A stretch of DNA of 62,706 nt from NCBI GenBank assembly GCA_017447185.1, contig JAFSOC010000034.1, forward strand, positions 1 through 62,706, given 5' to 3'. The translations under genes and the position numbers were made by a program. This document shows, piece after piece, positions 45,424-61,950 of the stretch. Position 1 is the first letter of the stretch. Every line of letters starts with the position of its first letter. The notes under the pieces were generated by a model that was not told the DNA's origin, ran no database searches, and saw nothing but the letters and a program-made list of their open reading frames with translations. This DNA is from Clostridia bacterium. Lineage in GTDB: Bacteria; Bacillota; Clostridia; Christensenellales; Aristaeellaceae.

Positions 45424-45580
45424 GAAGTGCCTTCCTTTCCGCCGCTTTTCGCGGTTCCCCGCTATTGTAACAGAAGAGCGGACGAAAAAAAACTGTACAA
45501 AACACAGGATTTGTGGGAACATATAGGTGACTGTGAACGTCAATATAAATGGAACCCATAAGAAACAGGAGGATGCGAGT

Positions 45581-47540: not shown

Positions 47541-48218
47541 TCAGACGCCAAGCGCCAGATCTGTAATGCTGAGGACACTTACGGATCCTTCCAGATCCTG
47601 ATACAGATAAACAATGACCCATGTCGTGCCCTTGTTGATCTCACTGGCTCTGCAAAGAACAGCATAATTGGTCCCCGCAACTACCTGTGTGCCAAGAACC
47701 GCCACCGGAGTATATGCGATCGTAATGGTTCCGGTCTGGTAACTGTCCATCGCCTGCCAGAACATGTTGTTGATCTCATCGGTGATTGTCGTCAGGTCTT
47801 CAGCGACGCTCCAGCCGCCAGCAAGTGCACCGGTTTCCGGGATTTCAGGTGTTCCGCTGTCAGGTTCGGATCCTTCTTCCGGTTCAATGGGCATATACAT
47901 GGTCAATGTCATACCGTTATAGTCGCCACTGAACTGATGAACTTCTTCATTCCATTTCAGGGAGATTTCTTCGCCATCGGCTGTGAGTACCAGTGTTTCA
48001 CCGTCAAATGTCCAGGTGCCTTTTTTGCTTTCATTCTCAACCATTACTTCAAAGGTGTTATCTTCATAGATGAAAATGGTCTGCTCCATAATCGCGTTAT
48101 CACCCAGGGCATAGAACAGATTCCAGTCGCTGATCAGAAAACTATCCTGCTCAGCATGAGCATAAACCAGGCCAAGAGAGAGAGTAAGAATCAGAATAAA
48201 CGACAACAGTTTACGCAT
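47541..48218 (-). CDS. Exported two-domain protein with C-terminal cystatin-like domain, 225 aa
   Basis: Signal peptide (about 1-22). An N-terminal beta-rich domain (about 45-112, alternating KGTWTFDGETLVLTADGEEISLKW pattern, lipocalin-like) is joined by an acidic linker to a cystatin-like domain. That domain repeats the features of the 140-aa neighbour: GG at 134-135 (LAGGW) and QVVAG at 178-182 in GTQVVAGTNYAVLCR. It is preceded by LytTR-type direct repeats and a -10 at 48285-48353, immediately downstream of the first LytTR-DUF3021 module, so it is a likely target of that system. Confidence 0.78.
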   Translation of the reverse strand: MRKLLSFILILTLSLGLVYAHAEQDSFLISDWNLFYALGDNAIMEQTIFIYEDNTFEVMVENESKKGTWTFDGETLVLTADGEEISLKWNEEVHQFSGDYNGMTLTMYMPIEPEEGSEPDSGTPEIPETGALAGGWSVAEDLTTITDEINNMFWQAMDSYQTGTITIAYTPVAVLGTQVVAGTNYAVLCRASEINKGTTWVIVYLYQDLEGSVSVLSITDLALGV

Positions 48219-48284: not shown

Positions 48285-48353
48285 ATTGTACCATAGAAAG
48301 CGCCCGGAAGGACATCTTCCGGGCTGAGCGGTTGTTTCCCGTGTCTGAACGGT
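48285..48353 (-). promoter_or_regulatory. LytTR-type promoter P1 for the two-domain cystatin-like gene
   Basis: Direct repeats ACCGTTCAG (complement of 48345-48353) and ACCGCTCAG (complement of 48324-48332), period 21 bp, matching the LytTR consensus of two 9-bp repeats with a 12-bp spacer. A TACAAT -10 (complement of 48285-48290) lies 34 nt from the proximal repeat. No consensus -35, as expected of an activator-dependent promoter. Confidence 0.72.
48303..48323 (-). terminator. Hairpin between LytTR repeats and the -10 of P1
   Basis: CCCGGAAG (48303-48310), GACAT loop, CTTCCGGG (48316-48323). It follows the first LytTR module on the minus strand and occupies the -35 position of P1; the T-run is short. 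Confidence 0.55.
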
Positions 48354-48396
48354 TTACTTTTTCACATTATGATGCGTCCCACTAATGACTCATTGG

Positions 48397-48576
48397 TTAT
48401 TTCTCCTTGCTGCCAAAAAGGGAATAAATCACGCCTGAAATGACGCCGCTGATTGCAACTGCGATCCAGCTGTGAGACCAGTCGTTTCCAAGTACGCCCC
48501 AGATGAACATGACAATAACGCCAATCGCATTGATAACAATCGGAAGCTTTTTGGGATCGATATTCTTAAAATCCAT
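48397..48576 (-). CDS. Small membrane protein, 59 aa
   Basis: One clear hydrophobic helix (PIVINAIGVIVMFIWGVLG) and a second weaker glycine-rich hydrophobic segment (IAVAISGVISGVIYSLF). The ATG at 48576 has AGGAGG 9 nt upstream. Third gene of the first LytTR-DUF3021 operon, 32 bp behind the DUF3021 gene; the second module lacks it. Function unknown; it could modulate the membrane inhibitor. Confidence 0.65.
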   Translation of the reverse strand: MDFKNIDPKKLPIVINAIGVIVMFIWGVLGNDWSHSWIAVAISGVISGVIYSLFGSKEK

Positions 48577-48608
48577 AACCTTTGTCCTCCTGATATAAAT
48601 ATGATTTG

Positions 48609-49019
48609 TTAACTGTTTCCGGACTTCCATTTAATCAGTTCGTCGTTCATTTCCCGAATCTGCCGTCTGTAGGACAGGTACTGGAGCAGCCAGATCAGAA
48701 TATATACGGCAACCATCGCACCCACCACAATCCAGAAGACAGGATCGCTCAGGCTGAACCAGCCCATAGAGATCACAAGAAGAAAATACAGCGCAAAAAC
48801 CAGCAGAAAATGTGTGGCGGTGGCCCGGGCAATGCTCCATTTTTCAATGCCGTAAACAACGGAGCTGCCCATCGCGACCGCGCCGTAAATGCCGCCTATA
48901 ACAATATGCGCGAAAGCGCCTTGCAAAGGCTGTGAATCCAACAGTACGAGACAGATGACGATGGCGGCGCCGATCACAAAGCCAGCCAGGCCGAGCAATG
49001 TCGCTTTTTTCCACAGCAT
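48609..49019 (-). CDS. DUF3021 membrane protein of LytTR module 1, 136 aa
   Basis: Four predicted transmembrane helices (starting near ATLLGLAGFVIGAAI) and a basic C-terminal tail, matching DUF3021. In LytTR regulatory systems of streptococci (HdrRM, BrsRM), a co-encoded membrane protein holds the LytTR regulator inactive; the same role is inferred here. Start at 49019 follows AAGGAGG and lies 4 bp after the LytTR stop. It is clearly paralogous to the product of 61528-61950 (shared MLWKKATLLGLAGFVIG start and KWSIARATATHFLLVFALYFLLVISM core). Confidence 0.88.
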   Translation of the reverse strand: MLWKKATLLGLAGFVIGAAIVICLVLLDSQPLQGAFAHIVIGGIYGAVAMGSSVVYGIEKWSIARATATHFLLVFALYFLLVISMGWFSLSDPVFWIVVGAMVAVYILIWLLQYLSYRRQIREMNDELIKWKSGNS

Positions 49020-49023
49020 ACGC

Positions 49024-49506
49024 TTATTCCTCCTTTCCTGCTTCAATGCGGCTCAGTGCCTGATGGATTACTCGGACATATCTTCGCGCCGCCCAGGTGA
49101 TGCTTCCGTCATCAAAACGGATATAAACGGTACCGGTTGTGCTGAAATCAAAACTTGCAATCTTCCGTATATTGGCAATCTCAAAACGGCTGATCCGGAT
49201 AAATCGGTCCGGATTCAACTGCTGTTCCAGAAAAGAAAGGCTTTTGTTTGATTCATATACTTCCTTACCGACACAGATCCTGACTTTTCGCGCCTCCACA
49301 TACGCACGGGTAATATCCCGTTGACTCAGAAGTTCCATTTCGCTGTCCCGGTATCCGACAATCAGCGGATAGCTGCTGTTCGTACAGGTTTCAATGGCAT
49401 GGACAATATCTTCCACACGCTGCGTCTTCCGGTCTGTACGAATCAGGATAACAGGATCATGGCATTGCGGATCAATCTGAATCTTGATTTCCACAGGATT
49501 CTTCAT
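49024..49506 (-). CDS. LytTR-family DNA-binding regulator, module 1, 160 aa
   Basis: Small regulator with an N-terminal region resembling the product of 61956-62438 (MKxPVEIKI) and a C-terminal LytTR domain (about 60-155, with RFIRISRFEIANIRKI and GTVYIRFDDGSITWAARRYV). There is no receiver domain, so activity is probably controlled by the DUF3021 partner. The ATG at 49506 follows GAGGTG. The paralogue has exactly the same length (160 aa). Predicted target sites: LytTR repeats at 48324-48353, 50803-50832 and 50891-50920. Confidence 0.88.
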   Translation of the reverse strand: MKNPVEIKIQIDPQCHDPVILIRTDRKTQRVEDIVHAIETCTNSSYPLIVGYRDSEMELLSQRDITRAYVEARKVRICVGKEVYESNKSLSFLEQQLNPDRFIRISRFEIANIRKIASFDFSTTGTVYIRFDDGSITWAARRYVRVIHQALSRIEAGKEE

Positions 49507-49570
49507 GCTACACCTCGTTACGTGCGCAGCGCACACTGTTCTATTTCTTAAGATGATTCCAAGAAACAGC

Positions 49571-49599
49571 GTGATTGCATGTTTTTCTGCGGATGATAA
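49571..49599 (-). promoter_or_regulatory. Probable promoter of LytTR module 1
   Basis: TTATCA (complement of 49594-49599), 17-bp spacer, AATCAC (complement of 49571-49576). Spacer and -35 match the module 2 promoter, but the -10 is degenerate, so basal expression may be low. Confidence 0.45.
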
Positions 49600-49606
49600 G
49601 CAATTG

Positions 49607-50722
49607 TTATCTATGGATAAATGCCAGGGTGCTGATGATCTCCTGCGCTTCAGCTTCCGCTGTTTCGCCATCCAGCCAGAAGGCAATTTCCACATACTGA
49701 TCCCCATCATCAAAGAGATAGTTCAGTGTGGTGTATTCCTTCCCGTCATAAGTTTCTTTAGCCCGATACCATGCCACATCAATTCCATTGATATTCTTAC
49801 CGGTGACCACTTCAAATGCGTTGTATTCCGCGGCTTCCTGCTCTGCATACGCAGCCAGGCTGTCCGGCCGGCCGGCCTTGGTAAACTGATAGACATCGAA
49901 GTCCAGCAGGGTTTCATCACTGCGCATATAGGCAACCATGTCATCCCTGATATCCGCCTCGGTTCTGTTTCCTTCTGTAAAGCTGTCCGGAATCCTGATG
50001 GTATAGACAGAAGTTCCAAGTCGATATACGGCAGGCTCTCCTGTTTCTGACATAAAATCGATCACCAGATTCGTTTCGCCCTGTTTGTATTCCAGGCGAA
50101 TACCTCCATCTGTCAGAATCAAACCTGCTACGATGCTGTGCTCATGGTCCAGAAAACTCATCGTATAATTCTTTTCATCCTTGCACAGCATGGAATACTC
50201 ATAGGAAGGTTCTTCTTTTCCTGCACAGACTGCCCTGCCTGTCACATAGAACGGAATTGAATTCTCACCGTTCTGATAGTATTCCGCAGTTACCTCATCC
50301 GGAAAATGCGTTTCAAATTCATCCAGGGCTGCTCTCAGGTTTTCAGGAGTAAACTCTTCTCCGCCGGCCTGCGGCAATCCCTGCAAAGAGGCAAGCACCG
50401 CTTCATCCTTCAGCAAGTCTTCCTTCAGACCATGGAAAGCTTCCTTGATCTTGGGGACATCGACCGTTACAGGAATTAATGTATCAAAATTGTAACCATC
50501 GAACTGGTATTCACCTTTCACAGGTTCTCCCGGTACAGCCGCTTCCGTACAAACCTGCATAAAGGACGAGATGTATGTCGACAGAGAGGTGGGCATAATA
50601 CTCATGGTACCCTCTCCAGATTCATTAACAGCTGCTGTTCCGGCTGATGCTGCGACATTTGTCAAAATCATAGCCAGGAATATAACGATTGCTATTATTC
50701 TTTTTGTTCTGAAAATGCTCAT
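49607..50722 (-). CDS. Exported protein, 371 aa, paralogue of the 45581-46879 product
   Basis: Signal peptide (about 1-28). From about residue 45 it shares the STYISSFMQ...EYQFDGYNFDTLIPVTVDVPKIKE domain with the product of 45581-46879. The C-terminal half is a separate alpha/beta region (IRIPDSFTEGNRTEADIRDDMVAYM, NINGIDVAWYRAKETYDGKEYTTLNYLFDDGDQYVEIAFWL), resembling small lipoprotein-like domains of Clostridia. Function unknown. The gene lies upstream of LytTR module 1 and has its own LytTR-type promoter P3. Confidence 0.75.
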   Translation of the reverse strand: MSIFRTKRIIAIVIFLAMILTNVAASAGTAAVNESGEGTMSIMPTSLSTYISSFMQVCTEAAVPGEPVKGEYQFDGYNFDTLIPVTVDVPKIKEAFHGLKEDLLKDEAVLASLQGLPQAGGEEFTPENLRAALDEFETHFPDEVTAEYYQNGENSIPFYVTGRAVCAGKEEPSYEYSMLCKDEKNYTMSFLDHEHSIVAGLILTDGGIRLEYKQGETNLVIDFMSETGEPAVYRLGTSVYTIRIPDSFTEGNRTEADIRDDMVAYMRSDETLLDFDVYQFTKAGRPDSLAAYAEQEAAEYNAFEVVTGKNINGIDVAWYRAKETYDGKEYTTLNYLFDDGDQYVEIAFWLDGETAEAEAQEIISTLAFIHR

Positions 50723-50762
50723 ATGAGTATCATCCCTCCATTATTCAATTGATTATGATTCT

Positions 50763-50832
50763 CTTATAGCACAAAAGAATACAAGATGCTCGTCTTTTTC
50801 GCCTAAGCGGTTATTATAGAAGCATAAGCGGT
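50763..50832 (-). promoter_or_regulatory. LytTR-type promoter P3 for the 371-aa exported protein
   Basis: Direct repeats ACCGCTTAT (complement of 50824-50832) and ACCGCTTAG (complement of 50803-50811), period 21 bp. A TATAAG -10 (complement of 50763-50768) lies 35 nt from the proximal repeat. Confidence 0.65.
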
Positions 50833-50890
50833 AAAAAGCGTTTTATCGGGGCGGGCCTTCCGCGGGGCCGTTGTTTATCTGCGGGCATAA

Positions 50891-50959
50891 ACCTTTCAGC
50901 CGCGTAAAACGACCGTTCGGACAAAAACCGTTGCTTTCCGGTGCGGATTCGTTCAGAAT
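50891..50959 (+). promoter_or_regulatory. LytTR-type promoter P4 for the exported-protein operon
   Basis: Direct repeats ACCTTTCAG (50891-50899) and ACCGTTCGG (50912-50920), period 21 bp. A CAGAAT -10 (50954-50959) begins 34 nt from the proximal repeat, the same spacing as P1 and P2. It is divergent from P3; together they fill the 338-bp gap 50723-51060. Confidence 0.6.
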
Positions 50960-51060
50960 GAACCTATCAACAACAACTGATATTTCCGGTATTCCCCAAC
51001 CAGAGCGCGGCGGAAGGGAGCGGCGTTTCCTGTTCCCCGCGGAGAGGAGAACGGTTCAAA

Positions 51061-52380
51061 GTGAAAAAGAAGGTATTGCTGGCGGCTGTGCTTGTGGGCC
51101 TGCTTCTGCTGCAGGCGGTTTTCGCGGGCCTGGCGGAGGGGCAGCCATCCCTGTCCCTGGACCCGGCGGAGATCACCCTGGACAAGGGCAAATCCCAGAA
51201 GCTGAAGCCCGTGGCGGAGAATGTGGAAAACGCGAGGAAAATCAAATACGCCTGGGAATCCTCCGATCCGGCGGTGGCATCAGTGAACAACGGGGGCGCG
51301 GTGAAGGCGGCGGACGCCGGCACCGCGGTCATTACCTGCACCGCAACCCTGCCGGACGGGAACGTGCTGACGGCGACGGCGTCCGTGACGGTGCGGATTC
51401 CCGTGAAAGGGCTGAAGATCACGACGAAGGCGAATACGGCCTTCCCCGCCCGGGAAAGCCTGCAGCTGGAATACACCCTGCAGCCGGAGAACACAACGGA
51501 CCGCGCCGTGGCCTGGACCAGCTCCGATGAGGGGATCGCCACGGTGGATGAAAACGGCGTGGTAACCGGCGTGGCGCCCGGCAAGGTGACCATCACCGGC
51601 ACGGCGGCGAACGGCAAAGGCGCCAAGGTGAACCTGCAGGTAACCCCGGCGGTGATCCAGGGGAAACAGCTGGAGATCCAGGGCGCGGTTTACCATCCGG
51701 AGACCGGGATGCTGGAGGTGACCTGGGTGAACACCGGCAGCGGCATCGCCGGGGCGGAGCTGCGGATCAATCCCCTGGACGGGGAGGGAAACCCGGTGCT
51801 CATCGGCGAGGGGTATATTGAAGAGATCCCCCTGGAGGAGCGGGTGCTGCATACTTCCATGCCCGTGCCGGCGGGGGAAACGGTGACCGTCTCCCTGCAG
51901 ACCGGCAGCGCGTATCCCGCCGCGGCGCAGATGGAGATCGCCGTGGACCGGATCACCCGGGAGGACGGCAGCGTACTGGAGCTGCCGGATAACCGGCTCT
52001 GCTGGTATTCCACGGCGGCGGGGGCCTACACGGCAGGCCCGGAAAGCGACGAACCTTACCAGGCGCCGGAGGAGGATATACAGACCGCGGCGGATGTCCG
52101 GTTCGGCTTCCGGGCGTTGGCGGTGCCCGGGGAGCTGGCGGCGGCCTACGGGTTCCCCCGGGGCGGATTACTGGTCACGGAGATCGGGGAAGGTTCCGCC
52201 GCGGAGGCCATGGGCCTGGAAACCTGGGACCTGGTCTTCGGCGTCAACGAAACGGGTTATGACGGGGAACTGTACATTCTTCCGCAGGCAGCGGCCGCCC
52301 TTTCCCGGGGCGAAGCCGTCACCCTGTGGATCGCGCGGGACGGGGAAGTCCTGACCATCGACCTGGAGCCCGGAGAATAA
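51061..52380 (+). CDS. Exported Big2-domain protein with C-terminal PDZ-like domain, 439 aa
   Basis: Signal peptide (about 1-26), two bacterial Ig-like (Big2) domains (about 30-120 and 121-205, each with a VAWTSSDEGIATVDENGVVTGVAPGKVTIT-like pattern), a beta-rich middle, and a PDZ-like C-terminal region (GGLLVTEIGEGSAAEAMGLETWDLVFGVN). No protease triad accompanies the PDZ. Likely a cell-surface binding protein. GTG start at 51061 follows GGAGAGGAG. First gene of a five-gene operon of exported proteins behind P4. Confidence 0.82.
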   Translation: MKKKVLLAAVLVGLLLLQAVFAGLAEGQPSLSLDPAEITLDKGKSQKLKPVAENVENARKIKYAWESSDPAVASVNNGGAVKAADAGTAVITCTATLPDGNVLTATASVTVRIPVKGLKITTKANTAFPARESLQLEYTLQPENTTDRAVAWTSSDEGIATVDENGVVTGVAPGKVTITGTAANGKGAKVNLQVTPAVIQGKQLEIQGAVYHPETGMLEVTWVNTGSGIAGAELRINPLDGEGNPVLIGEGYIEEIPLEERVLHTSMPVPAGETVTVSLQTGSAYPAAAQMEIAVDRITREDGSVLELPDNRLCWYSTAAGAYTAGPESDEPYQAPEEDIQTAADVRFGFRALAVPGELAAAYGFPRGGLLVTEIGEGSAAEAMGLETWDLVFGVNETGYDGELYILPQAAAALSRGEAVTLWIARDGEVLTIDLEPGE

Positions 52381-52404
52381 GGGCGGAGAAGAGGAGGAAA
52401 CACC

Positions 52405-52923
52405 ATGAAGAAAATCATCAGCCTGCTGCTGGTGCTGGCCTGTGTACTGGGCCCGGCCGCCGGCGCCTTCGCGGAAACCGGATTTGAAACCATCTACGGC
52501 CTGTTCTGCAGCGAGGAGGCCTTCGGCCCGGTCTACGAGGAAAAAAACCGGGACGAGGAAATGGAATATGAAGCTCAGGCGAATGAAACCCTGGGGGAGG
52601 AGGAAGCGGTGAAATTCTGCTTCGTCATCTTCTACTTCGCCCCGGAGTATGACGATACGGAGGTCTGGCTCCTGGGGGAGAACGCGGAGGGCGCCGGCAA
52701 GCTGGTCAAATGGAGAAGCGATTATGAGCAGGGTGCCACCATCATGATGTTCATGCTGAGCAAATTCGCGGATTTCCGCGGGGCCATCGCCCGGGACGTG
52801 GATTTCGCCATCGCCTATTCCTTTGACGGCGGGCAGACCATGAACACCTATGACACCGTGGAGGCGGCGGAGGAATTCACCAATATGATGGAGACCGCCG
52901 CGGCCACCCAGGGCATGGAGTAA
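52405..52923 (+). CDS. Exported acidic protein, 172 aa, unknown
   Basis: Signal peptide (about 1-23); the mature protein is acidic, with two cysteines and a mixed alpha/beta pattern. I recognise no family. ATG at 52405 with GAGGAGG. Second gene of the operon, 24 bp after the first. Confidence 0.7.
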   Translation: MKKIISLLLVLACVLGPAAGAFAETGFETIYGLFCSEEAFGPVYEEKNRDEEMEYEAQANETLGEEEAVKFCFVIFYFAPEYDDTEVWLLGENAEGAGKLVKWRSDYEQGATIMMFMLSKFADFRGAIARDVDFAIAYSFDGGQTMNTYDTVEAAEEFTNMMETAAATQGME

Positions 52924-52956
52924 GGAAAACCGGACAAACAGCGGGAGGAACCGGAT

Positions 52957-53436
52957 ATGAAAGAAACCGGCAGGAAGAAACACGGATGGACAAGAAGGCT
53001 GCTGTGCGGAATGCTGCTGCTGTGCCTGGCGGCCGGCGCCGCGGCGGAGGGCTGGCCGGAACAGTCCATGAAGGACGGCGAGGGAAAAACCATCAAGACC
53101 GTGCCCACCGGGGACGGCAAAACGGAGGTCTGGGAGTTCATCGGCATCTTCGGCAGCCCGGCGGAGGCGCTGAATGTGGTGGGCCTGAAGGAGGATGACG
53201 AGGAACAACCCGGGGAGCGCCTGGTGGAGATCGCCGGAAAGAAGATCAAGGCGAAGAAGAAAAAGAAGAAGGGCGATCTTCCCCTCCTGTGGGGCGACGA
53301 CTGGAACTGGACCCTGAAGAAGGGGAAGGTGCCCGTCCGGCGGAAGAAGAAGAACCAGGCGCTGGACGTGGTGGACTACACCCCGCCGGACCGGCCCCTG
53401 ATCTATATCCAGGAAAACCGGGCCAGCGGCCGATAA
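52957..53436 (+). CDS. Exported basic protein, 159 aa, unknown
   Basis: Signal peptide after a basic N-terminus (MKETGRKKHGWTRRLL). The mature part contains a highly basic lysine stretch (about 97-109) and a second basic patch near 128-133, so it may bind anionic wall polymers. The MKDGEGKTIKTVPTGDGKTEVWEFIGIFGS segment resembles the start of the mature 563-aa product of the operon (a GDGxYExWxxxG pattern). ATG at 52957 with GGGAGG. Third gene of the operon. Confidence 0.68.
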   Translation: MKETGRKKHGWTRRLLCGMLLLCLAAGAAAEGWPEQSMKDGEGKTIKTVPTGDGKTEVWEFIGIFGSPAEALNVVGLKEDDEEQPGERLVEIAGKKIKAKKKKKKGDLPLLWGDDWNWTLKKGKVPVRRKKKNQALDVVDYTPPDRPLIYIQENRASGR

Positions 53437-53455
53437 GGGGAAGGGGGAAAGCAGG

Positions 53456-54688
53456 ATGAGAAAAATGTTTTGTTTGCTGATCGCCCTTGCCCTGGCCATG
53501 GTGTGGCTGCCGGCGGCCGGCGGGGAGGGCGCTCCGGGGGCTGGGAAGCCCACGGGTACCGTGCTGCCCATTGTGGAAAGCGAATCCGTGACCCGGGAGT
53601 GCTTCTTTGCCAACGGCACCCCCATCACCATCCGGGAACCGTCGGCGGATACCACGGGCTGGGTGCATGATGAGGAAGTGCAGGCCGCAATGGAGGACGG
53701 GTTCTCCCCGAAAAAGAAACCGAACCCAGGTTCCCTCATCTCCTGGCAGGAAGGGGAAACCACGAAGTATGTGTATATCTCCGGTAACGGCAAGATCTTC
53801 GGCGGCAGCCTGAACGCGGACGTGCAGGCGGAGGTACAGATCACCGTGCAGGGAACGGACGTGCGGAAGGGATTCCCCAACGCCTCCTTCCTCTTCGGCG
53901 GCGGGTACGGCGGGGATATCCTGGGCAGCGTCACCATCACCCTGGAAGAAAGCCAGATGATGTATGTCTACGGCGGCGGATACAACGGCAGCGTCACCGG
54001 GGACGTGACCATCCGGTCCACGGGAACCAACTGGTCCCTGGACATGGTGGGGGGCGGCCTGGCCAGCTCGAAGACCGCGGACGCGGTGGCGGACGTGGGC
54101 GGAAATGTCCTCCTGGACCTGCGGGGGATCACCATCAGTTATATGGATACCCTGGTCTGCGGCGGCCTGGCGGAATCCATTTCTCCCTTCACCGCCCGGG
54201 CCAATGTAGCCGGCAGCGTCACGGTGTACGCCGAGGGACGGAATGTCTACCAGGTGTGCGGCGGCGGGGAGGCCTACCGGACGAATGAAAACTGCGGCTG
54301 GCCCACGGCGGACGTGGGCGGGGATATCTCCCTGGAGCTGCGGGACAGCCGGGTCCGCTGGTACCAGGACAAGGCGTCGACCCTGCTGGGGGGCGTGTTC
54401 GGCGGCGGCCTGGCCCACTGGGGCGAGGCGACGACCGGCGGCAGTGTGGAAGTGATTGTGGGGAACACCCTCTTTGACAAGGAAGCCATGGGCGTGGTGC
54501 TGGGCGGCATGGCCGAGGGCAAAGGCGCCGTGGCGGACGTGGAAGGAAACGCGTCGGGCCGGGTGCTGTCCGGGGCCGATCCGGCCCGGGTGGTCCGGGG
54601 CGGCGTGGAATACCTGGAGGGCGCCGCGGAAGTGAAGGGCGACATCACCTGGAGCTACACCCTCCGGGACGGCCTGCTGGATTACTGA
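53456..54688 (+). CDS. Exported glycine-rich beta-repeat protein, 410 aa
   Basis: Signal peptide (about 1-22) and then a series of repeats built around GGG (FGGGYGGDILGSVTITLEES, YGGGYNGSVTGDVTIRSTG, VCGGGEAYR..., FGGGLAHWGEATTGGSVEVIVG), each followed by a beta-strand. This pattern fits a right-handed beta-helix or adhesin-like fold on the cell surface. No LPXTG-type anchor is seen. ATG at 53456, 20 bp after the previous gene, with a GGGG-rich ribosome binding site. Fourth gene of the operon. Confidence 0.72.
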   Translation: MRKMFCLLIALALAMVWLPAAGGEGAPGAGKPTGTVLPIVESESVTRECFFANGTPITIREPSADTTGWVHDEEVQAAMEDGFSPKKKPNPGSLISWQEGETTKYVYISGNGKIFGGSLNADVQAEVQITVQGTDVRKGFPNASFLFGGGYGGDILGSVTITLEESQMMYVYGGGYNGSVTGDVTIRSTGTNWSLDMVGGGLASSKTADAVADVGGNVLLDLRGITISYMDTLVCGGLAESISPFTARANVAGSVTVYAEGRNVYQVCGGGEAYRTNENCGWPTADVGGDISLELRDSRVRWYQDKASTLLGGVFGGGLAHWGEATTGGSVEVIVGNTLFDKEAMGVVLGGMAEGKGAVADVEGNASGRVLSGADPARVVRGGVEYLEGAAEVKGDITWSYTLRDGLLDY

Positions 54689-54701
54689 GGAGGTGCAGCG
54701 A

Positions 54702-56393
54702 ATGAAACGGCATTGGAAACGGATCCTGGTTTCAGCCTTCCTGGCGGCCGTGCTCCTGCTCTGCGCCGGTTTCGGCATCGGGCAGCGCGCCGCCCGGGCG
54801 GAGGAAAACAGCGGCATGAAAACCTATACGGACAGCCAGGGCCGGCGGTTCCGGGTGATTCCCCTGGGGGACGGCCGGTATGAGCTGTGGATGATGACGG
54901 GGGTAAAGAGCGACGAGGAGCTCACCGCCGAACTGGAGTGCAAGCATCTGAACATTTTCTGGGAAAAGGGCAACGGACAGTTTCACTGGCAGCACTGTCC
55001 GGACTGCGGAAAGACCTTTGAACCCCTGGCCCACGTCTATGACCAGATTACGGTGAAAAAGAAGGCCACCTGCACGGCCAACGCGGTGCTGGAGCGCAAA
55101 TGCGTCTGCGGCCGGGTGGATACCGGGAACACGGCCCCCGCCCGGGGGGATCCGGCGGAATACTTCGCCCATCACACCTGGGGATCCGGCTGGCAGCACG
55201 ACCGTTTCGGCCACTGGCAGGTCTGCACGGTCTGCGGTGAAAAAGGAACCGAAACCGCCCACGCGATCCGGAACCTGGCGGTGGACCGGGAACCCACCTG
55301 CCTGAACAACGGATGGGTCAGCTTCGACTGCGCGGTGTGCGGCGAGCATGTCAGCAGCCTGGAAGCGGCGGATTTCATTGTGGAGAAATATCCGGAGCTG
55401 GCGCAGTACCGGGCCCTGGGGCATGATTTCTCCGGCCCCCTGAAGGTGGCCCATGGCGACAAAAAGCAGACGGAGCGGAAGGGCGGCACCCATGCGAAGA
55501 GCTGTACCCGCTGCGGCACAGCGGACCTGCTGAACGCCACCCCCCACAGCTGGGCGGAGTATACCATCAGCAACGGCACCTGCGAGGATGAGAAGGACCC
55601 GGTGGTCATCGGCGGCACCTGCGAGTGCGGGGCAACGCTGGAGTTGACCTATACCCGGCACCACAAGTACGTGAAGGACTCCAGCAACGATGTGCAGCCC
55701 ACCTGCACGGAACCGGGCAAACTGAACGGGGAGCGCTGCGTCTATTGCGGCATTTTCGGGAATTATGACTTCGCGGAACCCCTGGGCCACGACTGGATCG
55801 AGGAAAAGGAGAAATACGTGGAGCCCACCTGCACCACCATGGGCGAAAGCCACTGGTACTGCTGGCGGTGCCTGGCGGAGGAAACCCGGCCGATCAAAAC
55901 CCGGAGCCAGTCGGGCCAGCACGAGTTTGTGCGGCACGATATCCAGACGGCGGAGTGCTGCGGCAAGGGCTGGTATATCATGGTCTGCAAGATCTGCGGC
56001 GAGGACGACAAGCAGGGCAACTACTATGTGGACAAGCTGCCCCACGATACCTACACCACCACCAAGAAGATCGGCCGGGTAATGGACGGAACCACCCGGG
56101 ACGGCACTCCCATGGTGGGCCAGGTGTGGGAATCGGTGACCAAATGCCACCACTGCCATGAAACCCTGGGCCGGGACGAGTGGACGGTCTGGAAATCCCT
56201 GCGGGGGAACCGGTACCAGATTTACGACTTCCGGAAAACCACTCCGCCCCGGGATACGAAGGACATGGAAGTGGTGACCGGCCAGATGGCCAGGGACGGC
56301 GGCACCTATTTCGAAAGCGAGATCCAGAAGGCCTTCGGCAAAAAGATCAAAGAGAACCAGAAGAAATACGAACTGCTGGATGTCAGGAAATGA
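54702..56393 (+). CDS. Exported multi-zinc-ribbon repeat protein, 563 aa
   Basis: Signal peptide (about 1-33), followed by at least eight C-x-C or C-x2-C knuckles (CPDCGK, CVCGR, CTVCGEKG, CAVCGEH, CTRCGT, CECGA, CVYCG, CWRC, CKICGED, CHHC), often in the ATCTxxG...CxxCG-type repeat known from secreted Clostridia proteins. Likely a metal-stabilised extracellular binding protein; no enzyme motif. The ATG at 54702 has GAGGAGG 8 nt upstream. Last gene of the operon, 13 bp after the glycine-rich gene. Confidence 0.8.
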   Translation: MKRHWKRILVSAFLAAVLLLCAGFGIGQRAARAEENSGMKTYTDSQGRRFRVIPLGDGRYELWMMTGVKSDEELTAELECKHLNIFWEKGNGQFHWQHCPDCGKTFEPLAHVYDQITVKKKATCTANAVLERKCVCGRVDTGNTAPARGDPAEYFAHHTWGSGWQHDRFGHWQVCTVCGEKGTETAHAIRNLAVDREPTCLNNGWVSFDCAVCGEHVSSLEAADFIVEKYPELAQYRALGHDFSGPLKVAHGDKKQTERKGGTHAKSCTRCGTADLLNATPHSWAEYTISNGTCEDEKDPVVIGGTCECGATLELTYTRHHKYVKDSSNDVQPTCTEPGKLNGERCVYCGIFGNYDFAEPLGHDWIEEKEKYVEPTCTTMGESHWYCWRCLAEETRPIKTRSQSGQHEFVRHDIQTAECCGKGWYIMVCKICGEDDKQGNYYVDKLPHDTYTTTKKIGRVMDGTTRDGTPMVGQVWESVTKCHHCHETLGRDEWTVWKSLRGNRYQIYDFRKTTPPRDTKDMEVVTGQMARDGGTYFESEIQKAFGKKIKENQKKYELLDVRK

Positions 56394-56409
56394 TTCCGGC
56401 AAAAGCAGG

Positions 56410-56440
56410 AGGCCCCGCATCCGCGGGGCCTTTGTCTGTT
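56410..56440. terminator. Terminator at the convergent operon end
   Basis: AGGCCCCGC (56410-56418), ATCC loop, GCGGGGCCT (56423-56431), then a T-rich stretch. It can also serve the minus-strand gene ending at 56448. Confidence 0.85.
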
Positions 56441-56447
56441 TTGGTTC

Positions 56448-58901
56448 CTATCGCTTGTCCCGGTCCACCTGTTCCAGGAACAGGAGTCCTATGAATACAT
56501 ACAGTAATGTAAAGCCGATGAGGATTCCCCAGTTGAGCCACACGTTCGCCGCGGTGAAGGCGTACTGGTCCTTCTGCAGCTGGGAGGCGGTGAGCTGGCC
56601 TACGGTGTGGTTCACTTCGTCGATGGACAGCACCTTCTGCACCCGGGAGACCAGGCTGTCCGGATCCTTGTTGTTCATGGTGTTCAGGGCGGTGAGCAGC
56701 ACGGAGGATTCCTGGCCGTTGTAGTCGGAAACGGTGCAGACCGCCTGGATGCCCCACTTGGTGATGGTGCCGTTGGCCAGGGCCTGGCCCATGCTGTCCA
56801 GCGGGATGATGAAGTTGGCGTACACCAGCTGGATGATGAGCACGAAAGGCATCACCGTCATGGCGGAGATGGGCGTGTGCACGATACAGGAGATCATGAG
56901 GCCCAGCATGGCGGAGCAGTAGGTGATCAGGAACATGGTGATGAACAGGTCCAGCACGAAGCTGCCGGTCACCGCGCTGACGGAGGGCATGTGCACGCCG
57001 AACACCAGGAAGATCACGATACAGATGATCACCTGGAGGATGCTGATGCCCGCCTGGTAGATCATGTGCGAAGCGAGGTACGAGGATATGTGCAGGCCGG
57101 CCCGGTGTTCCCGCTTGATGATTCCCCGCTCCTTACAGACCACCTGGATGGAGTTGAACACGCCGTTCCACAGGCACACGCAGGTGATGGCGAAGGCCGC
57201 GTAGGAGGTGCCTTCCATGTTGATGAACATCCGCTTGCCGATGACGTACACCACCAGGTAGGCGGTGATGGCCGACAGGGGAATCACCTTCCAGTTGCCC
57301 TCGTTGATGAACATCCGCAGGTGCTTGCCCAGGAAGATGGGAATCTGGGCGGCCCGGCTCTTGTAGCGGACCTGGGCCAGCTCCTCGGAAGCGATCTCGT
57401 CGGAAGTTTTCGCCCCGGCTTCCCGGAACACTTCCTCCGTCTGTGCGGCCTGCTCCTCCTGGTAGGCCTTGTATTTCTCAATGAATTCGTCCGCCCGGCC
57501 TTCGCCGCCCTCGTTCGTCGCGTTGATGCGCTTGACCACGTTTTCCAGGGTGTCGGCGCCGAAGAATTCCTTCGCCTCCGGAATGCTGCCGTAGAAGGCC
57601 AGCTGGCCCACCTGGTTTTCCGTGCTCTTGGCCAGGACGATCACCTTGTCAAACAGGTTGGCGACCCGGTCCGGGGCGTGGGTGATGACCAGCACCATCT
57701 TGCCCTGGCAGGCGATGAGCCGCAGGTTTTCCATCAGTTCCCGGGCCATGATGCCGTCGAGGCCGGAGTCCGGCTCGTCGAGGATGAACAGGTTCGGACT
57801 GGCGATGAATTCCGTACAGATGGACAGGCGCTTTTTCTGGCCGCCGGAGAGCTTTTCCACCAGCGTATCCTCCCGGCCGGAGAGGCCGAAGGTTTCCAGC
57901 GCCAGGCGCACCTTCCGCTTCTTTTCCTCCGGGCTCAGGTTGGAGGGCAGCCGCAGGTCCGCCGCGTTGCTGACGGTCATCAGCACCGTGTCCTCCTCGC
58001 GCATCAGGTTATCCTGGGGCACGAAGCCGATCCGGTGCTTCACCTGTTCATACTGCTGGTAGTAGTCGATGCCGCCCTCGGTGATGGTGGCCTTCGCCTT
58101 TTCATAGCCGGTGACCGCGTTCACAAAGGTGCTCTTGCCGGCGCCGCTGCCGCCCAGGATCATGACCATGTTGCCTGGCTCGATGGACAGGCGGATATCC
58201 TTCAGCAGCGTATATTTCTTCAGGGAATTGGTGACGGTCCGCTCGTCGATGGCGATGTTCAGCCCGCCCTCCACGGTAAGCAGGCCGTACAGAAGGCCCG
58301 AGCCCTCGAAGATGAACCGGGTGGAGCCGATCATCAGGCAGTCGTCAAACTGCAGGGCGGTGGCTTCCTGCACGTTTTTCCCGTTGAGCATCAGGTTATC
58401 CACGCCGATGTCCTTCAGGGCCCAGCGGCTGTCCTCATATTCCAGGGTCATGGCCGCGGGGGCGCCGTTGCCGGAAGCGTTCTCGATGGTCACGGTGTGG
58501 CGGCCGTCATCCATGTTGATGAACTGCCAGTCCGTGGAGGAGGCAAACTCCTGCAGGAACACGGCGGTCAGCATCCGGTCGTTGGACAGGCGGATCACCG
58601 TATTGTCCTGCAGCTCGCATTCCTCCCCGCAGGGCAGCAGTTTGCCGCCCACGAAGGTGAACACATTCGGGCTCAGGTTTTTGCAGATCCATTTCCCGTC
58701 CTCATAGCGGATTTCCATCTGCTCCGGATCCAGGAAAGGATACATCAGCTGCAGGCTGGAGGTGGTGAACACATCCATCTCCTGCTGGCCCCTGATCAGG
58801 GCCTGGTCAAAGATCACGTACTGCCGGGGCTTCTCCTGCGCTTCGAAGAAGACCAGGCCGGCCGGGATGTCCGGCCGCGCGGAAGTATGTATTTCGCTCA
58901 C
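56448..58901 (-). CDS. FHA-like-ABC-2 membrane fusion transporter, 817 aa
   Basis: Domain order: an N-terminal pair of FHA-like beta domains (about 1-210, with SPNVFTFVGGKLL and NLMLNGKNVQEATALQFDDCLMIGSTRFIF, resembling FHA folds), an ABCG-type ATPase (Walker A GGSGAGKST about 250, LSGGQKK, Walker B LFILDEPDSGLD), and a C-terminal ABC-2 membrane domain with six helices (about 560-815). This FHA-ABC architecture is known from actinobacterial Rv1747-like exporters and from some Firmicutes. It starts at a GTG (58901) overlapping the upstream stop by four bases. Substrate unknown. Confidence 0.85.
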   Translation of the reverse strand: MSEIHTSARPDIPAGLVFFEAQEKPRQYVIFDQALIRGQQEMDVFTTSSLQLMYPFLDPEQMEIRYEDGKWICKNLSPNVFTFVGGKLLPCGEECELQDNTVIRLSNDRMLTAVFLQEFASSTDWQFINMDDGRHTVTIENASGNGAPAAMTLEYEDSRWALKDIGVDNLMLNGKNVQEATALQFDDCLMIGSTRFIFEGSGLLYGLLTVEGGLNIAIDERTVTNSLKKYTLLKDIRLSIEPGNMVMILGGSGAGKSTFVNAVTGYEKAKATITEGGIDYYQQYEQVKHRIGFVPQDNLMREEDTVLMTVSNAADLRLPSNLSPEEKKRKVRLALETFGLSGREDTLVEKLSGGQKKRLSICTEFIASPNLFILDEPDSGLDGIMARELMENLRLIACQGKMVLVITHAPDRVANLFDKVIVLAKSTENQVGQLAFYGSIPEAKEFFGADTLENVVKRINATNEGGEGRADEFIEKYKAYQEEQAAQTEEVFREAGAKTSDEIASEELAQVRYKSRAAQIPIFLGKHLRMFINEGNWKVIPLSAITAYLVVYVIGKRMFINMEGTSYAAFAITCVCLWNGVFNSIQVVCKERGIIKREHRAGLHISSYLASHMIYQAGISILQVIICIVIFLVFGVHMPSVSAVTGSFVLDLFITMFLITYCSAMLGLMISCIVHTPISAMTVMPFVLIIQLVYANFIIPLDSMGQALANGTITKWGIQAVCTVSDYNGQESSVLLTALNTMNNKDPDSLVSRVQKVLSIDEVNHTVGQLTASQLQKDQYAFTAANVWLNWGILIGFTLLYVFIGLLFLEQVDRDKR

Positions 58902-59848
58902 TCTGCTCCCTCCTCCTCTGCCGGCTGTCCAAAGGCGTCATAGATCGGCGTCAGGTCCATTTCCTTCGCCTTCTCCACCAGCTTATCCACGATGTCCATG
59001 GCCCGGTGGAGGAGCCCTTCCACGTCCGGATCATTGGACAGGCGGCTAAATTCCTCCCGGAGAACATCGTCCAGCTCCTTGCTTCCGTTGGTGATCTGCA
59101 GGAGCACGGTCCACACATTTTCGTTGCTCATGATCCCGAGGAGCGCGCCGTTGACTTCCGCTTTCAGGTCCGTCAGCCGGAGCATCTCCGACAGGAGCCG
59201 GCCGGTGAAGGATTCCCGGTCCAGGTGGCGCTTCTCCGCTTCCCGGGAAAGGACGCCCGCGGGGGCGTCCGCCTCCTTCTGAAGGATGTCCTTCCCCTCC
59301 TGCATCAGGCTGTCAATGGTCTTCAGCGCACTGGAGACGGTACCCTCGTTGACCATGTCCATGAGTTCGTGCAAGTTTTTCTGGAATCCCGGATCGGATT
59401 CCAGCGCCGCGGCGGATTCCCGCAGCGTCTGTCCGTCTTCGGAGGCCTTGAAGTTGCGGATCACGCCCACGACGCGCTCGCCGCTGTCCCAGATTTTCCC
59501 GACGCCCACCAGGTCCTCCTCCGTGAGCCCCAGCTCCAGCAGGATCTTCATGGTCACGTCCCGGTTCTGGAACATCCACACCAGCACCCGGAGCACCACC
59601 TCATGCATGACCTTGTTGAAATCCTCGATCCGCATCAGGCTTTGCACATCCTCCCGCAGGCTCAGCTGCACCAGCTGGAGCAGCAGGCTGCCGATGGAGT
59701 TCGCGGCCTCCCCCTCCCGGGTGACCACGGACTGCTGGATTTCAGCGTCCGTCCGGGCGGAGGGATTTTCCGCGGCGGCGGCCGTCATCCCGACGGCCAG
59801 GATCCCCGCCAGCAGGAGGGCCACGGCCCTCCGTATCATTTTCCTCAT
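58898..59848 (-). CDS. Exported helical protein coupled to the FHA-ABC gene, 316 aa
   Basis: Signal peptide (about 1-26) and a long, mostly helical, Glu/Leu-rich mature region with no cysteines or catalytic motifs. The stop at 58898-58900 overlaps the start of the FHA-ABC gene by four bases (GTGA), so the two are translationally coupled and probably act together, for example as an extracytoplasmic partner or cargo of the transporter. ATG at 59848 with GGGAGG. Family unknown. Confidence 0.72.
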   Translation of the reverse strand: MRKMIRRAVALLLAGILAVGMTAAAAENPSARTDAEIQQSVVTREGEAANSIGSLLLQLVQLSLREDVQSLMRIEDFNKVMHEVVLRVLVWMFQNRDVTMKILLELGLTEEDLVGVGKIWDSGERVVGVIRNFKASEDGQTLRESAAALESDPGFQKNLHELMDMVNEGTVSSALKTIDSLMQEGKDILQKEADAPAGVLSREAEKRHLDRESFTGRLLSEMLRLTDLKAEVNGALLGIMSNENVWTVLLQITNGSKELDDVLREEFSRLSNDPDVEGLLHRAMDIVDKLVEKAKEMDLTPIYDAFGQPAEEEGAE

Positions 59849-59957
59849 CCGGAATAATTCCTCCCTGCGCGGCCTCCCGGGCCGCGGTAATACATTCACC
59901 ATCATACTCCATCGGGCTGCAGAAAACAATCTGCAGTACGGCGGAAAAACCGGCCAT

Positions 59958-59989
59958 AAAAAACCTGCCGGGGCTTTGCGCTCCGGCAG
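59958..59989 (-). terminator. Terminator of the SH3 protein gene
   Basis: CTGCCGG (59965-59971) pairs with CCGGCAG (59983-59989); six Ts follow on the minus strand. Confidence 0.85.
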
Positions 59990-60006
59990 ATCGGATCCCT
60001 TAAGCA

Positions 60007-60522
60007 TTATTTCTTGTTCTTGACCAGGTACTTGGTTTTGACCCAGCCGATGCGGTTGCCGTTGAACCGGATGCGGCACCAGTTGACGCCGGCGGACAGC
60101 ACGGTTACCTTGGTGCCTCCCTCCAGCCGGTCCAGCAGGCGGGCCTTGATGGAGGCGGAGCGGCGGATGTTCACCGGGCCGATGCCGGATTTGATGTAGC
60201 GGGTGCCGGTGCCGATGGAGGAGCCGCCGCTGCTGCTCCCGCCGGAGGAGTAGGTGGACAGGTACTGTTTGTACATGTAGCCGACCTTGCCGTCCGGGGT
60301 ACGGACCCTGGCCCAGTATTTGCCGGATTTCAGGATCTCCACCCGGGTCCCGTTCCTGTACCGGCCGATAATCGCGCTGTCGCCGCTGGCCTCCTGCCGC
60401 AGATGCAGCACATCGTTGCTGATCACCACGCGGGCATAGGTTTCTGCAAAGACGACCTCCGGCACCGCTGCCAGCAGCAGCACCAGCGCCGCGAGACACG
60501 CAAATAAGCGCTTCATTTTCAC
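60007..60522 (-). CDS. Exported SH3-domain protein, 171 aa
   Basis: Signal peptide (about 1-26) and two bacterial SH3 domains (about 30-88 and 105-170) separated by a Ser/Gly linker. Each has the typical VNIRRSASIKARLLDRLEGGTKVTVLSAGVNWCRIRFNGNRIGWV pattern. It is related in architecture to the 725-aa SH3 protein at 17992 and likely binds cell wall or other polymers. The GTG at 60522 is preferred over an ATG at 60516 because GGAGG is 9 nt from it. Confidence 0.82.
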   Translation of the reverse strand: MKMKRLFACLAALVLLLAAVPEVVFAETYARVVISNDVLHLRQEASGDSAIIGRYRNGTRVEILKSGKYWARVRTPDGKVGYMYKQYLSTYSSGGSSSGGSSIGTGTRYIKSGIGPVNIRRSASIKARLLDRLEGGTKVTVLSAGVNWCRIRFNGNRIGWVKTKYLVKNKK

Positions 60523-60703
60523 AGGTATACACCTCCGCATATAATTCTGTTTGTGGGCACAGTTTATTGTAAAGCAACTTGTTTCGTCAAGGGCTCCGGG
60601 CCGGTGTAACCGCCCAAAATGGTCCTTTTTTGGGAAATATCAAAAATTGTAAGGAAAACATAACAAAAGTGTAACGGTTTTGGTTACATAAGCGGATGCA
60701 TAG

Positions 60704-60736
60704 AAAAAGGCTCCCTGTCACATCCGGCAGGGAGCC
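60704..60736 (-). terminator. Terminator of the 206-aa exported protein gene
   Basis: GGCTCCCTG (60709-60717) pairs with CAGGGAGCC (60728-60736); followed on the minus strand by TTTTTC. Confidence 0.85.
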
Positions 60737-60784
60737 GGCACATCATTTTTTGTTCATGACGCTCAGGATGGAGATTCTCCCGGC

Positions 60785-61405
60785 TTATGCCGCAGGCTCC
60801 AGGGCCTTTGTCAGGTCCTCATAGGTGTAGGATTTTTCATAAATGACCGAACCGTCCGCATTGAGATACCGGATCCCCATCACCACTTTGTTCACGTCGA
60901 TGCCGGAGCCGGTCATCTCCTCCATGGAGGTCTTCAGGTTCTGCATCGCTTCCTGGGTTTCAAAGGTGGCGGCAATGCTTTCGGCAATCGCTTTGGCATT
61001 ATCCTCGTCCGCCTGTTCCTTCATGGTATACACGGAAAACATTTCGTTCCCGGTCACCTGGACATCGATGGTCATCGGAAGATCTTCCGGAATCTTGCCG
61101 TTCTCATCCAAGAACTGCATGGAGCCGAAGAGCGTCCAGGCGCCCGCGGGCAGGCAATCCTCGAGGGTGATCTCCGCACCGCTGGCCTTCTTCGCTTCGA
61201 AGTCCTTTGCAAAGCCTTCCCAGTCGATCTGGTCCATGCCGGGAATCAGCTGCATGATGGCCATGAACACTTCCGTGTTGTCACCGGTGGATTCACCGGA
61301 CTCAGCGGACTCAGCGGACTCAGCGGATGCAAGGCCGGCGCAGCAGACAGAGAAGCACAGGATCAGCGCCAGAACCAGGGAAAGCCTACGAATCATTTTT
61401 TTCAT
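60785..61405 (-). CDS. Exported protein, 206 aa, LytTR module 2 target
   Basis: Signal peptide (about 1-28) then an SAES-repeat (61300-61325 region) and a mixed alpha/beta mature domain with GAWTLFGSMQFLDENGKIPEDLPMTIDVQV and a C-terminal MGIRYLNADGSVIYEKSYTYEDL. I recognise no family. The ATG at 61405 has AAAGGAG at 10 nt; an ATG at 61414 is too close to it. Promoter P2 with a perfect pair of LytTR repeats lies directly upstream, next to module 2. Confidence 0.78.
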   Translation of the reverse strand: MKKMIRRLSLVLALILCFSVCCAGLASAESAESAESGESTGDNTEVFMAIMQLIPGMDQIDWEGFAKDFEAKKASGAEITLEDCLPAGAWTLFGSMQFLDENGKIPEDLPMTIDVQVTGNEMFSVYTMKEQADEDNAKAIAESIAATFETQEAMQNLKTSMEEMTGSGIDVNKVVMGIRYLNADGSVIYEKSYTYEDLTKALEPAA

Positions 61406-61459
61406 GGGAAACATTCTCCTTTCAGGTTTACAGATTTATTCTGCTTTCAGAGTTAAATC

Positions 61460-61528
61460 ATGTTACCACAAAAAGAGCCCGGAAAGTTGCTTTCCGGGCT
61501 GAACGGTCGTTTTGGGCGTCTGAACGGT
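61460..61528 (-). promoter_or_regulatory. LytTR-type promoter P2 for the 206-aa exported protein
   Basis: Two identical direct repeats ACCGTTCAG (complement of 61520-61528 and 61499-61507), period 21 bp. A TAACAT -10 (complement of 61460-61465) lies 34 nt from the proximal repeat. The distal repeat abuts the DUF3021 stop codon. Confidence 0.75.
61470..61500 (-). terminator. Terminator of LytTR module 2, overlapping P2
   Basis: AGCCCGGAAAG (61476-61486), TTG loop, complement (61490-61500), with CTTTTT on the minus strand. It overlaps the proximal LytTR repeat by two bases and covers the -35 region of P2. Confidence 0.85.
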
Positions 61529-61950
61529 CAGTCAGCGTTTTCCCTGGACTTCCATTGATTCAGGTTTTCATTCATTTCCCTGATTTTCCGCCTGCAGGCA
61601 AGATACTGGATCAGCCAGATGATCACATAGGCGACGGCCATGCAGCCGATAATGATCCAGAAGAGGGGATCCTCCAGCCGGAACCACTTCATGCTGATGA
61701 CCAGCAGGAAATACAGGGCAAAGACCAGCAGGAAATGCGTGACGGTCGCCCGGGTGATGCTCCATTTTTCAATGTCGTAAACAATGGAACTGCCCATGGC
61801 CGCGGCACCGTATACGCCGCCCAGCAGGATATGCGGGAGATTCTTCCCGGACAGGCCTTCGGAGGATCCGGTCAGGATAAAAATGATACTGATGATTCCG
61901 CCGATCACAAAGCCTGCAAGGCCCAGGAGCGTTGCTTTTTTCCACAGCAT
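61528..61950 (-). CDS. DUF3021 membrane protein of LytTR module 2, 140 aa
   Basis: Four predicted transmembrane helices with the same core as module 1 (ATLLGLAGFVIGG, KWSITRATVTHFLLVFALYFLLVISM). Predicted membrane-bound inhibitor of the LytTR partner, by analogy with HdrM and BrsM. The ATG at 61950 follows AAGGAGG at 10 nt; it begins 5 bp after the LytTR stop. Confidence 0.87.
   Translation of the reverse strand: MLWKKATLLGLAGFVIGGIISIIFILTGSSEGLSGKNLPHILLGGVYGAAAMGSSIVYDIEKWSITRATVTHFLLVFALYFLLVISMKWFRLEDPLFWIIIGCMAVAYVIIWLIQYLACRRKIREMNENLNQWKSRENAD

Follow-up and report, generated by a model that had tools for sequence, protein, structure and literature searches.

Which genes do two neighbouring LytTR regulators control, and why does a target promoter stand where a regulator unit ends? 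The question is raised by a contig of a Clostridia bacterium (JAFSOC010000034.1, assembly GCA_017447185.1; the whole analysed stretch, 62,706 nucleotides, is called the window here), in which four pairs of 9-bp repeats precede genes for exported proteins and two modules of a LytTR gene and a DUF3021 membrane protein gene lie close by. An initial annotation had proposed a local LytTR regulon, and this core of the proposal holds: the only strong sites in the genome fall within this 13 kb, beside the two LytTR-DUF3021 modules and before exported-protein genes. Our preferred reading, with a probability of roughly 80%, is that two paralogous LytTR Regulatory Systems (LRSs) drive sites placed at their targets, with one target promoter fused onto the regulator unit at its 3' end. 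We favor it because of the four sites and the lack of another good match in the genome, the Pfam-supported regulators, the LRS-type spacing, the co-occurrence of sites and regulators in the genus, the positions of sites in relatives, and the hairpins.

Four repeat sites and two regulator modules

All four bipartite sites (9-mer, 12 bp, 9-mer) are present as claimed, and we name each by its lower coordinate. Three lie on the reverse strand: ACCGTTCAG-N12-ACCGCTCAG (48353-48324) at the 3' end of the first regulator unit (LRS1), ACCGCTTAT-N12-ACCGCTTAG (50832-50803) leading to a gene for a 371-aa protein, and a perfect pair, ACCGTTCAG-N12-ACCGTTCAG (61528-61499), leading to a gene for a 209-aa DUF4854 protein. 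The fourth, ACCTTTCAG-N12-ACCGTTCGG (50891-50920), lies on the forward strand and leads to a gene for a 439-aa Big_2 protein. The -10-like hexamers are TACAAT (48290-48285, reverse strand, gap of 33 nt) for site 48324, TATAAG (50768-50763, reverse strand, 34 nt) for 50803, CAGAAT (50954-50959, forward strand, 33 nt) for 50891, and TAACAT (61465-61460, reverse strand, 33 nt) for 61499, which agrees with the distances of 34, 35, 34, and 34 given earlier, counted from the last base of the site. CAGAAT is a weak -10, and TTGCTT occupies the -35 position of that site; site 50803 has no -35-like hexamer and no significant hairpin in its spacer.

LytTR proteins bind two 9-bp repeats about 12 bp apart with the strict consensus [TA][AC][CA]GTTN[AG][TG], which had been invoked for these sites. 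Both halves of site 61499 match it and the other three sites fail in at least one half, so matrices were used instead. The mismatches to the perfect pair number one (48324), five (50803), two (50891), and none (61499). Twenty dinucleotide (Markov) shuffles of the window produced no place at zero to two mismatches and 0.05 per shuffle at three; site 50803 taken alone is not improbable, there being eight places with five mismatches in the window against 3.55 expected.

Specificity was assessed across the 2.9-Mb genome, which is 88.66% complete. A profile of repeats, hairpin, and -10 (A4), built on 18 relocated sites that include 48324 and 61499 from the window, finds all four sites at E-values of 1.9e-16, 1.3e-13, 5.1e-4 (50891), and 3.3e-3 (50803), the last two lying outside its training set. 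No further good match appeared genome-wide among the 150 of 688 first-look candidates that were scored, the next having an E-value of 2.5. Counting mismatches to the perfect pair, at most three are found at 14 places in the genome versus one in the reversed control, and at most two at three places, all in this region. The 11 places at three mismatches all fall inside open frames of at least 363 codons (counted between stops), and no -10 scoring at least 4.9 follows any of them at 31-36 nt. A degenerate pattern allowing two mismatches occurs at seven places in both the genome and the reversed control (the control's mismatch levels were not broken down), and its four genome places at zero or one mismatch are the four window sites.

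In the family, the bare repeat pair with at most two mismatches is found in 36 of 150 genomes, at 51 places versus nine in the reversed control. The -10 was checked at 29 of the 51, one per genome: 28 lie within open frames of at least 100 codons, and a good -10 at 31-36 nt follows at only two (L058, L071), both LytTR-type sites. Occurrence of the motif away from exported-protein genes had been named as evidence that would count against the regulon; the bare pair is not rare in the family, whereas the motif with its spacer and -10 is specific.

Both LytTR-DUF3021 modules are real by Pfam, although the second runs past the 14 kb to which they had been assigned, reaching 62438. In the first, LytTR1 (160 aa, 49024..49506, reverse strand, PF04397 at residues 56-151) is directly followed by DUF3021 membrane protein 1 (137 aa, 48609..49022, reverse strand, PF11457 over its cut-off), the putative inhibitor of LytTR1. 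The second comprises LytTR2 (160 aa, 61956..62438, reverse strand, PF04397), 72.5% identical to LytTR1, and DUF3021 membrane protein 2 (140 aa, 61528..61950, reverse strand, PF11457 over its cut-off) directly 3' of it; the two DUF3021 proteins share 68% identity. The last base of the stop codon of this second DUF3021 gene is the first base of site 61499. Two stretches of DNA align between the modules, one spanning the gene pair (743 of 1002 bases) and the other the repeats, hairpin, and -10 (54 of 71), which suggests that the cassette was duplicated together with its 3' promoter. The proposal of a self-contained regulon leaves out a third, divergent LytTR-DUF3021 pair (L021:6655-7517) on contig C4 of the same genome, which brings the total to three; no convincing repeat site was found around it.

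AgrA and ComE are LytTR two-component regulators with a receiver domain, a histidine kinase partner, and paired 9-bp direct repeats. The window regulators share with them the LytTR DNA-binding domain and the paired repeats, but LytTR1 and LytTR2 lack a receiver domain by Pfam; LytTR1 has no other Pfam match at E<=0.1, and hence no receiver or kinase domain. The modules belong to the known LRS class: a membrane protein gene lies directly 3' of each LytTR gene, and the 9-bp direct repeats, whose 12-bp spacing falls within the 11-13 bp of the class, precede a -10 by about 33 nt. According to PMC6193735, this class has 9-bp repeats that are mostly 12 bp apart and mostly 10 bp before a -35, which is often 17 bp from the -10; these spacings add up to about 33 nt, so the fixed spacing seen here is the rule of the class. 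LRSs are a widespread sensory class whose characterization had, by 2018, been confined to Streptococcus mutans; there, the promoter of each regulator operon bears repeats, this feedback is called a globally conserved feature, and four of five LRS membrane proteins have DUF3021 or DUF2154 (PMC6193735).

HdrRM and BrsRM of S. mutans (PMC6193735) resemble our systems in having a LytTR gene upstream of a membrane protein gene and repeats mostly 12 bp apart and about 33 nt from the -10, and bacteriocin target promoters there also use such repeats. In contrast, the repeats here mostly accompany targets, and they often close the regulator unit at its 3' end, with a hairpin where a -35 is expected. 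What is known, then, is the LRS class and its spacing, and what is different is where the sites stand.

Site position across related systems

Self-activation at the operon promoter is considered general in LRSs, whereas the sites of the clade to which the window's LytTR proteins belong have mostly moved to targets. We scored site position around 84 LRSs at a threshold of 17, counting L226 once although it occurred twice. The outgroup, that is, LRSs of the same family outside this LytTR clade, comprised 31 loci, 26 of which gave rows with both genes (L087, L096, L114, L115, and L118 gave none). L090 and L091, which carry no LRS, were excluded from the count, as were further clade matches on contigs already in the set and L224, L225, and L227-L249.

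The outgroup resembles the window modules in its LytTR-DUF3021 pair, repeat spacing, and -10 distance, and differs in that 17 of its 26 members have the site 49-69 nt upstream of LytTR, with none downstream or divergent at the threshold. Several of the nine outgroup members scored as having no site show weaker sites at about the same upstream place under a looser look. The family members of the clade (n = 26) include 11 with a downstream site, at most 16 nt from the stop codon of DUF3021, 11 with a divergent one (upstream of LytTR and facing away), two with an upstream one, and three with none; one row has both a divergent and an upstream site. LRS1 of the window is counted among the three with none, its site lying 256 nt further on, past a gene for a 59-aa protein. 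Among further clade members from other Clostridia (n = 32), mostly labelled Lachnospiraceae or Eubacterium, 13 sites are downstream, three divergent, and three upstream, and 16 members have none, with three rows having two sites. When 21-bp-period repeats of other kinds were sought de novo around site-less LRSs, nothing trustworthy emerged, and several truncated rows were wrongly oriented; from this search, we use just the +256 position given for the site of LRS1.

The clade is found mostly in metagenome-assembled Clostridia from ruminant guts. In a LytTR tree of 79 rows, its 56 rows group together (100/100), set off by a long branch and placed among upstream-type LRSs, from which the clade is likely derived, assuming a midpoint root. 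The half-sites, judged by eye, change from ACCACTTAT-like in the outgroup to ACCGTTCAG- or ACCGTTTAG-like in the clade. As far as sequence can tell, most sites of this clade belong to targets rather than to the promoter of the regulator itself. In the window, the best matches directly upstream of LytTR1 and LytTR2 scored 7.5 and 9.3, with random intervals reaching 7.9 at 90% and 9.4 at 95%, so no autoregulatory site immediately before either gene stood out from background; just 268 nt are available upstream of LytTR2 before the contig end. A promoter-like TTATCA-17-TATAAT (62534-62506, reverse strand) precedes LytTR2, and terminator-like palindromes lie further upstream at the contig end (62594-62639).

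The gene order of LRS1 offers another route to feedback. A site and an exported-protein gene come first, followed by LytTR, DUF3021, the 59-aa membrane protein gene, a second site with its terminator, and an exported cystatin-like gene. The 371-aa exported protein (49607..50722, reverse strand; no Pfam or NCBIfam match) would be the first gene of this putative operon, and no terminator-like match was found on the reverse strand between it and LytTR1 (49607 to 49506). Loss of feedback in LRS1 was considered and dropped, since the site-led upstream gene has no terminator before LytTR1. Six of 15 regulator units examined begin in the same way, with an exported gene that has a site to itself and with no terminator detected ahead of LytTR (LRS1 of the window, L150, L152, L153, L156, and L155, the last with a weak site). 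Feedback by read-through is therefore plausible in such units.

In the mechanism that we propose, a signal would relieve inhibition of LytTR by DUF3021, and the freed LytTR would bind the 9-12-9 repeats and bring RNA polymerase to the -10 located 33-34 nt downstream, turning on the exported-protein genes. In the fused layout, the DUF3021 stop codon would be followed, in LRS1 past an additional small gene, by the repeats, a hairpin in place of the -35, the -10, and the target gene. Basal transcripts of the regulator would then stop within the target promoter, and expression of the target would require bound LytTR. The LRS1 operon would begin with the site-led 371-aa gene, and activation there would also raise LytTR1 and DUF3021 by read-through, which could keep positive feedback. 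The binding, activation, inhibition, membrane gating, termination in the cell, read-through, and signal relief are what we infer from the layout, which offers a predicted regulon of secreted Ig-like, DUF4854, cystatin-like, and small membrane proteins, together with a defined motif.

Hairpin promoters and competing explanations

Two of the window's spacers contain a hairpin. One, GCCCGGAAG-atgtc-CTTCCGGGC with a modest T-run (48302..48324, reverse strand), lies between site 48324 and its -10, and the other, GCCCGGAAAG-caa-CTTTCCGGGC with a T-run (61476..61500, reverse strand), before the -10 of site 61499. Both have the GC-rich stem and following T-run of an intrinsic terminator, the T-run being weaker at 48324, and they are third (61500-61476) and fourth (48324-48302) of 29 terminator-like matches listed between 47400 and 62706, with shuffles giving 15.4. 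The fixed spacers reported initially are thus real as spacing, but two of the four are terminator-like hairpins and so also 3'-end elements of regulator units. The window itself has no Rfam family at gathering score and no tRNA match.

Most downstream sites have a stem-loop that extends from the end of the second repeat and stops short of the -10. Comparing each spacer with 100 base shuffles, a z-score of -1.8 or lower, a cut-off chosen after seeing the values, was obtained at 19 of 24 downstream sites versus four of 36 upstream or divergent ones (L157, L212, L093, L095), and a z-score of -3.0 or lower at 14 of 24 versus two of 36. A covariation set of 24 sites, 18 of which had also served to build profile A4, was picked by hand, mostly for a visible hairpin (L154, L164, L207, L209, and L226 were left out); at least seven of nine stem pairs form in 23 of these, and also in 22% of spacer shuffles with eight registers allowed and in six of 41 other sites. 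Several stem pairs change on both sides, one being G-C in 8 and A-T in 13 of the 23 well-paired rows. The family's hairpin sites mostly lack a -35-like hexamer.

These hairpins may be no more than tight packing of an operon end against the next promoter, in an ordinary LRS with its targets and no coupling between the two. We place this at somewhat short of even odds; it is a sub-question of the favored reading, and the two sets of odds overlap. An operon end needs a terminator, and divergent sites of the same clade do without one; six of 11 divergent sites in the family, where this was scored, keep TTGnnn 17-18 nt before the -10. Packing accounts less readily for a stem that mostly starts at the end of the second repeat, for a -10 that stays at 33-36 nt across bacterial groups, for covarying arms, and for a similar hairpin at sites with no LRS directly upstream (L090 and L150 (3038, 1843), and by eye L259 and L269). 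At the other extreme, the repeats, hairpin, and -10 might form one coupled element, in which transcription of the regulator would occlude the target promoter until LytTR is bound or would hand polymerase over. A polymerase ending the regulator transcript at the hairpin would stand on or beside the target's -10, and polymerase that remains on DNA after termination and then starts again, usually in the opposite direction, has been reported (PMC6978322). We consider such coupling improbable; if true, the dose of the regulator and the output of the target would be linked not by binding alone but also through the act of transcription. The layout is a natural case in which to ask whether a terminator placed within an activator-dependent promoter makes a difference. 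A search of open-licence literature for LytTR with an intrinsic terminator, promoter, and direct repeat gave no match, which does not prove absence from print, and an equally open-licence search on terminators and promoters more broadly gave nothing on such a layout in the portions returned of the matches listed.

It is also conceivable, if quite unlikely, that the sites bind another regulator, such as the LytTR of the third pair, encoded on contig C4, or a protein of another type, with the neighbouring modules as bystanders. The consensus is broad among LytTR proteins, a third pair exists, and binding at the sites is a prediction. Co-occurrence in the genus argues for the neighbouring regulators: in a scan of 45 genomes with stricter filters and about 113 candidates scored per genome, all eight genomes with a LytTR of the window's clade (E<=1.2e-45) have a profile match at E<=4.6e-10, versus none of the other 37, whose best match is at 0.0033 (G172). 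Three of the eight (G152, G168, G186) contributed no training site. In addition, many profile matches lie within a few kb of a clade LytTR, and the repeats found upstream of LytTR in the family's other LRSs are related to these but distinct, often being ACCACTTAT-like.

Several observations weigh against regulation of these sites by the paralogous LRSs or against the fused layout. Genome G124 (L090) has a site and a protein 64% identical to the 225-aa target described below, with no LytTR match at E<=1e-12. In G172 (L263), which has only an outgroup-type LytTR, repeats 11 bp apart stand before a relative of the 59-aa protein, and its match at 0.0033 looks like a real site. Both genomes thus have sites with no clade LytTR found, as another regulator would predict; both assemblies are about 89% complete, and incompleteness may explain the absence. 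The bare repeat pair turns up commonly within coding sequence in the family, and window scores with the 'cla' matrix, which was made from the window's own sites, are circular. No expected site was found in three of 26 family clade rows, one of them LRS1 of the window, or in 16 of 32 further clade rows. Among downstream sites, L151, L164, L185, L207, and L209 lack a hairpin by the cut-off, L207 and L209 lie 73-78 nt after the stop, and L226 has a poor -10, while some hairpin sites keep a partial -35 (L090, TTGTTT). L168 and L169 are nearly identical, and the counts take in related rows without correction for kinship.

That the hairpin is chiefly an RNA regulatory element is very unlikely: its stem covaries and the repeats would fall in the 3' RNA of the regulator unit, but in 20 of 23 well-paired cases the nine bases that follow include at least four T, the hairpin lies upstream of the -10 and hence outside the target's own transcript, and no Rfam family was matched in the window.

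Targets and neighbouring genes

The products of the genes behind all four sites begin with a signal-peptide-like stretch, by a simple hydrophobicity rule and by eye, in line with the earlier claim that these are exported-protein genes. Behind site 48324 is a 225-aa protein (47541..48218, reverse strand) with a predicted strand-rich domain and a putative C-terminal cystatin-like domain; behind site 61499 is the 209-aa protein with DUF4854 (PF16146; 60785..61414, reverse strand); and behind site 50891 is the 439-aa protein with Big_2, an Ig-like domain (51061..52380, forward strand; PDZ match below cut-off). The last is followed on the same strand by four further open reading frames of 172, 159, 410, and 566 aa (52405..56393), 4-33 nt apart and with signal-like starts by eye. 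A terminator-like place lies after them at 56408-56433, with none in between on this strand, and we infer that the five-gene run is the operon of site 50891. In G170 (L269), a protein similar by eye to the 410-aa one stands behind its own site.

The 59-aa membrane protein of LRS1 (48397..48576, reverse strand) has two hydrophobic stretches by eye and a holin-like match below cut-off, with no family over its cut-off. Its relatives lie directly behind LytTR sites in several genomes, some (L259, L263) beside no LRS seen. Other kinds of target also recur behind sites in relatives, namely the 371/450-aa family, 225-aa and 129-aa cystatin-like proteins, Big_2, and DUF4854. Targets in relatives are not always exported and include an AIM24-family protein and, by eye, response-regulator- or transporter-like genes. 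In L157 and L159-L162, all from one genus, an AIM24/TIGR00266-like protein is the nearest good frame behind the divergent site (profile-tested for L157 only). In one batch of 16 sites from relatives, of which L187 shares its contig with L164, a signal-like start was flagged only for L186 and L197, the former being an ABC-ATPase-like false flag. The frame picker is crude, having chosen an internal start for 50803 and missed a signal-like frame for L194. Five window proteins have no NCBIfam match.

The C-terminal domain of the 225-aa target, which has no Pfam match, may be cystatin-like, a lead that comes from its predicted structure. The model (mean pLDDT 68) has a signal helix and eight strands, followed by a helix and four strands. 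A fold search placed cystatins at ranks 1, 2, and 4 among carboxylases and other unrelated proteins, with a best E-value of 3e-3 and none at E<=0.001; ricistatin (rank 18) has a TM-score of 0.73 by target length. By sequence alone, the 225-aa protein has no cystatin match. A neighbouring 140-aa protein (46999-47421, forward strand), with no LytTR site found before its gene, shares GGW and QVVAGTNY with the target and weakly matches oryzacystatin-I and a fluke cystatin (E-value of 0.24). Cystatins are marked by QxVxG and a glycine near the N terminus; in an alignment of nine rows, GGW occurs in all nine and QVVAG in eight, with QVAAG in one. Bacterial cystatins as such are not new, prokaryotic cystatins being already the subject of a paper (PMC2784779).

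Two further genes stand nearby. The gene at 45572-46879 (forward strand) encodes a relative of the 371-aa target (28% identity over 267 aa) and has no detectable LytTR site, though relatives elsewhere stand behind sites. The gene at 56448-58901 (reverse strand) encodes a large ABC transporter-like protein with an N-terminal part that is FHA-like by eye.

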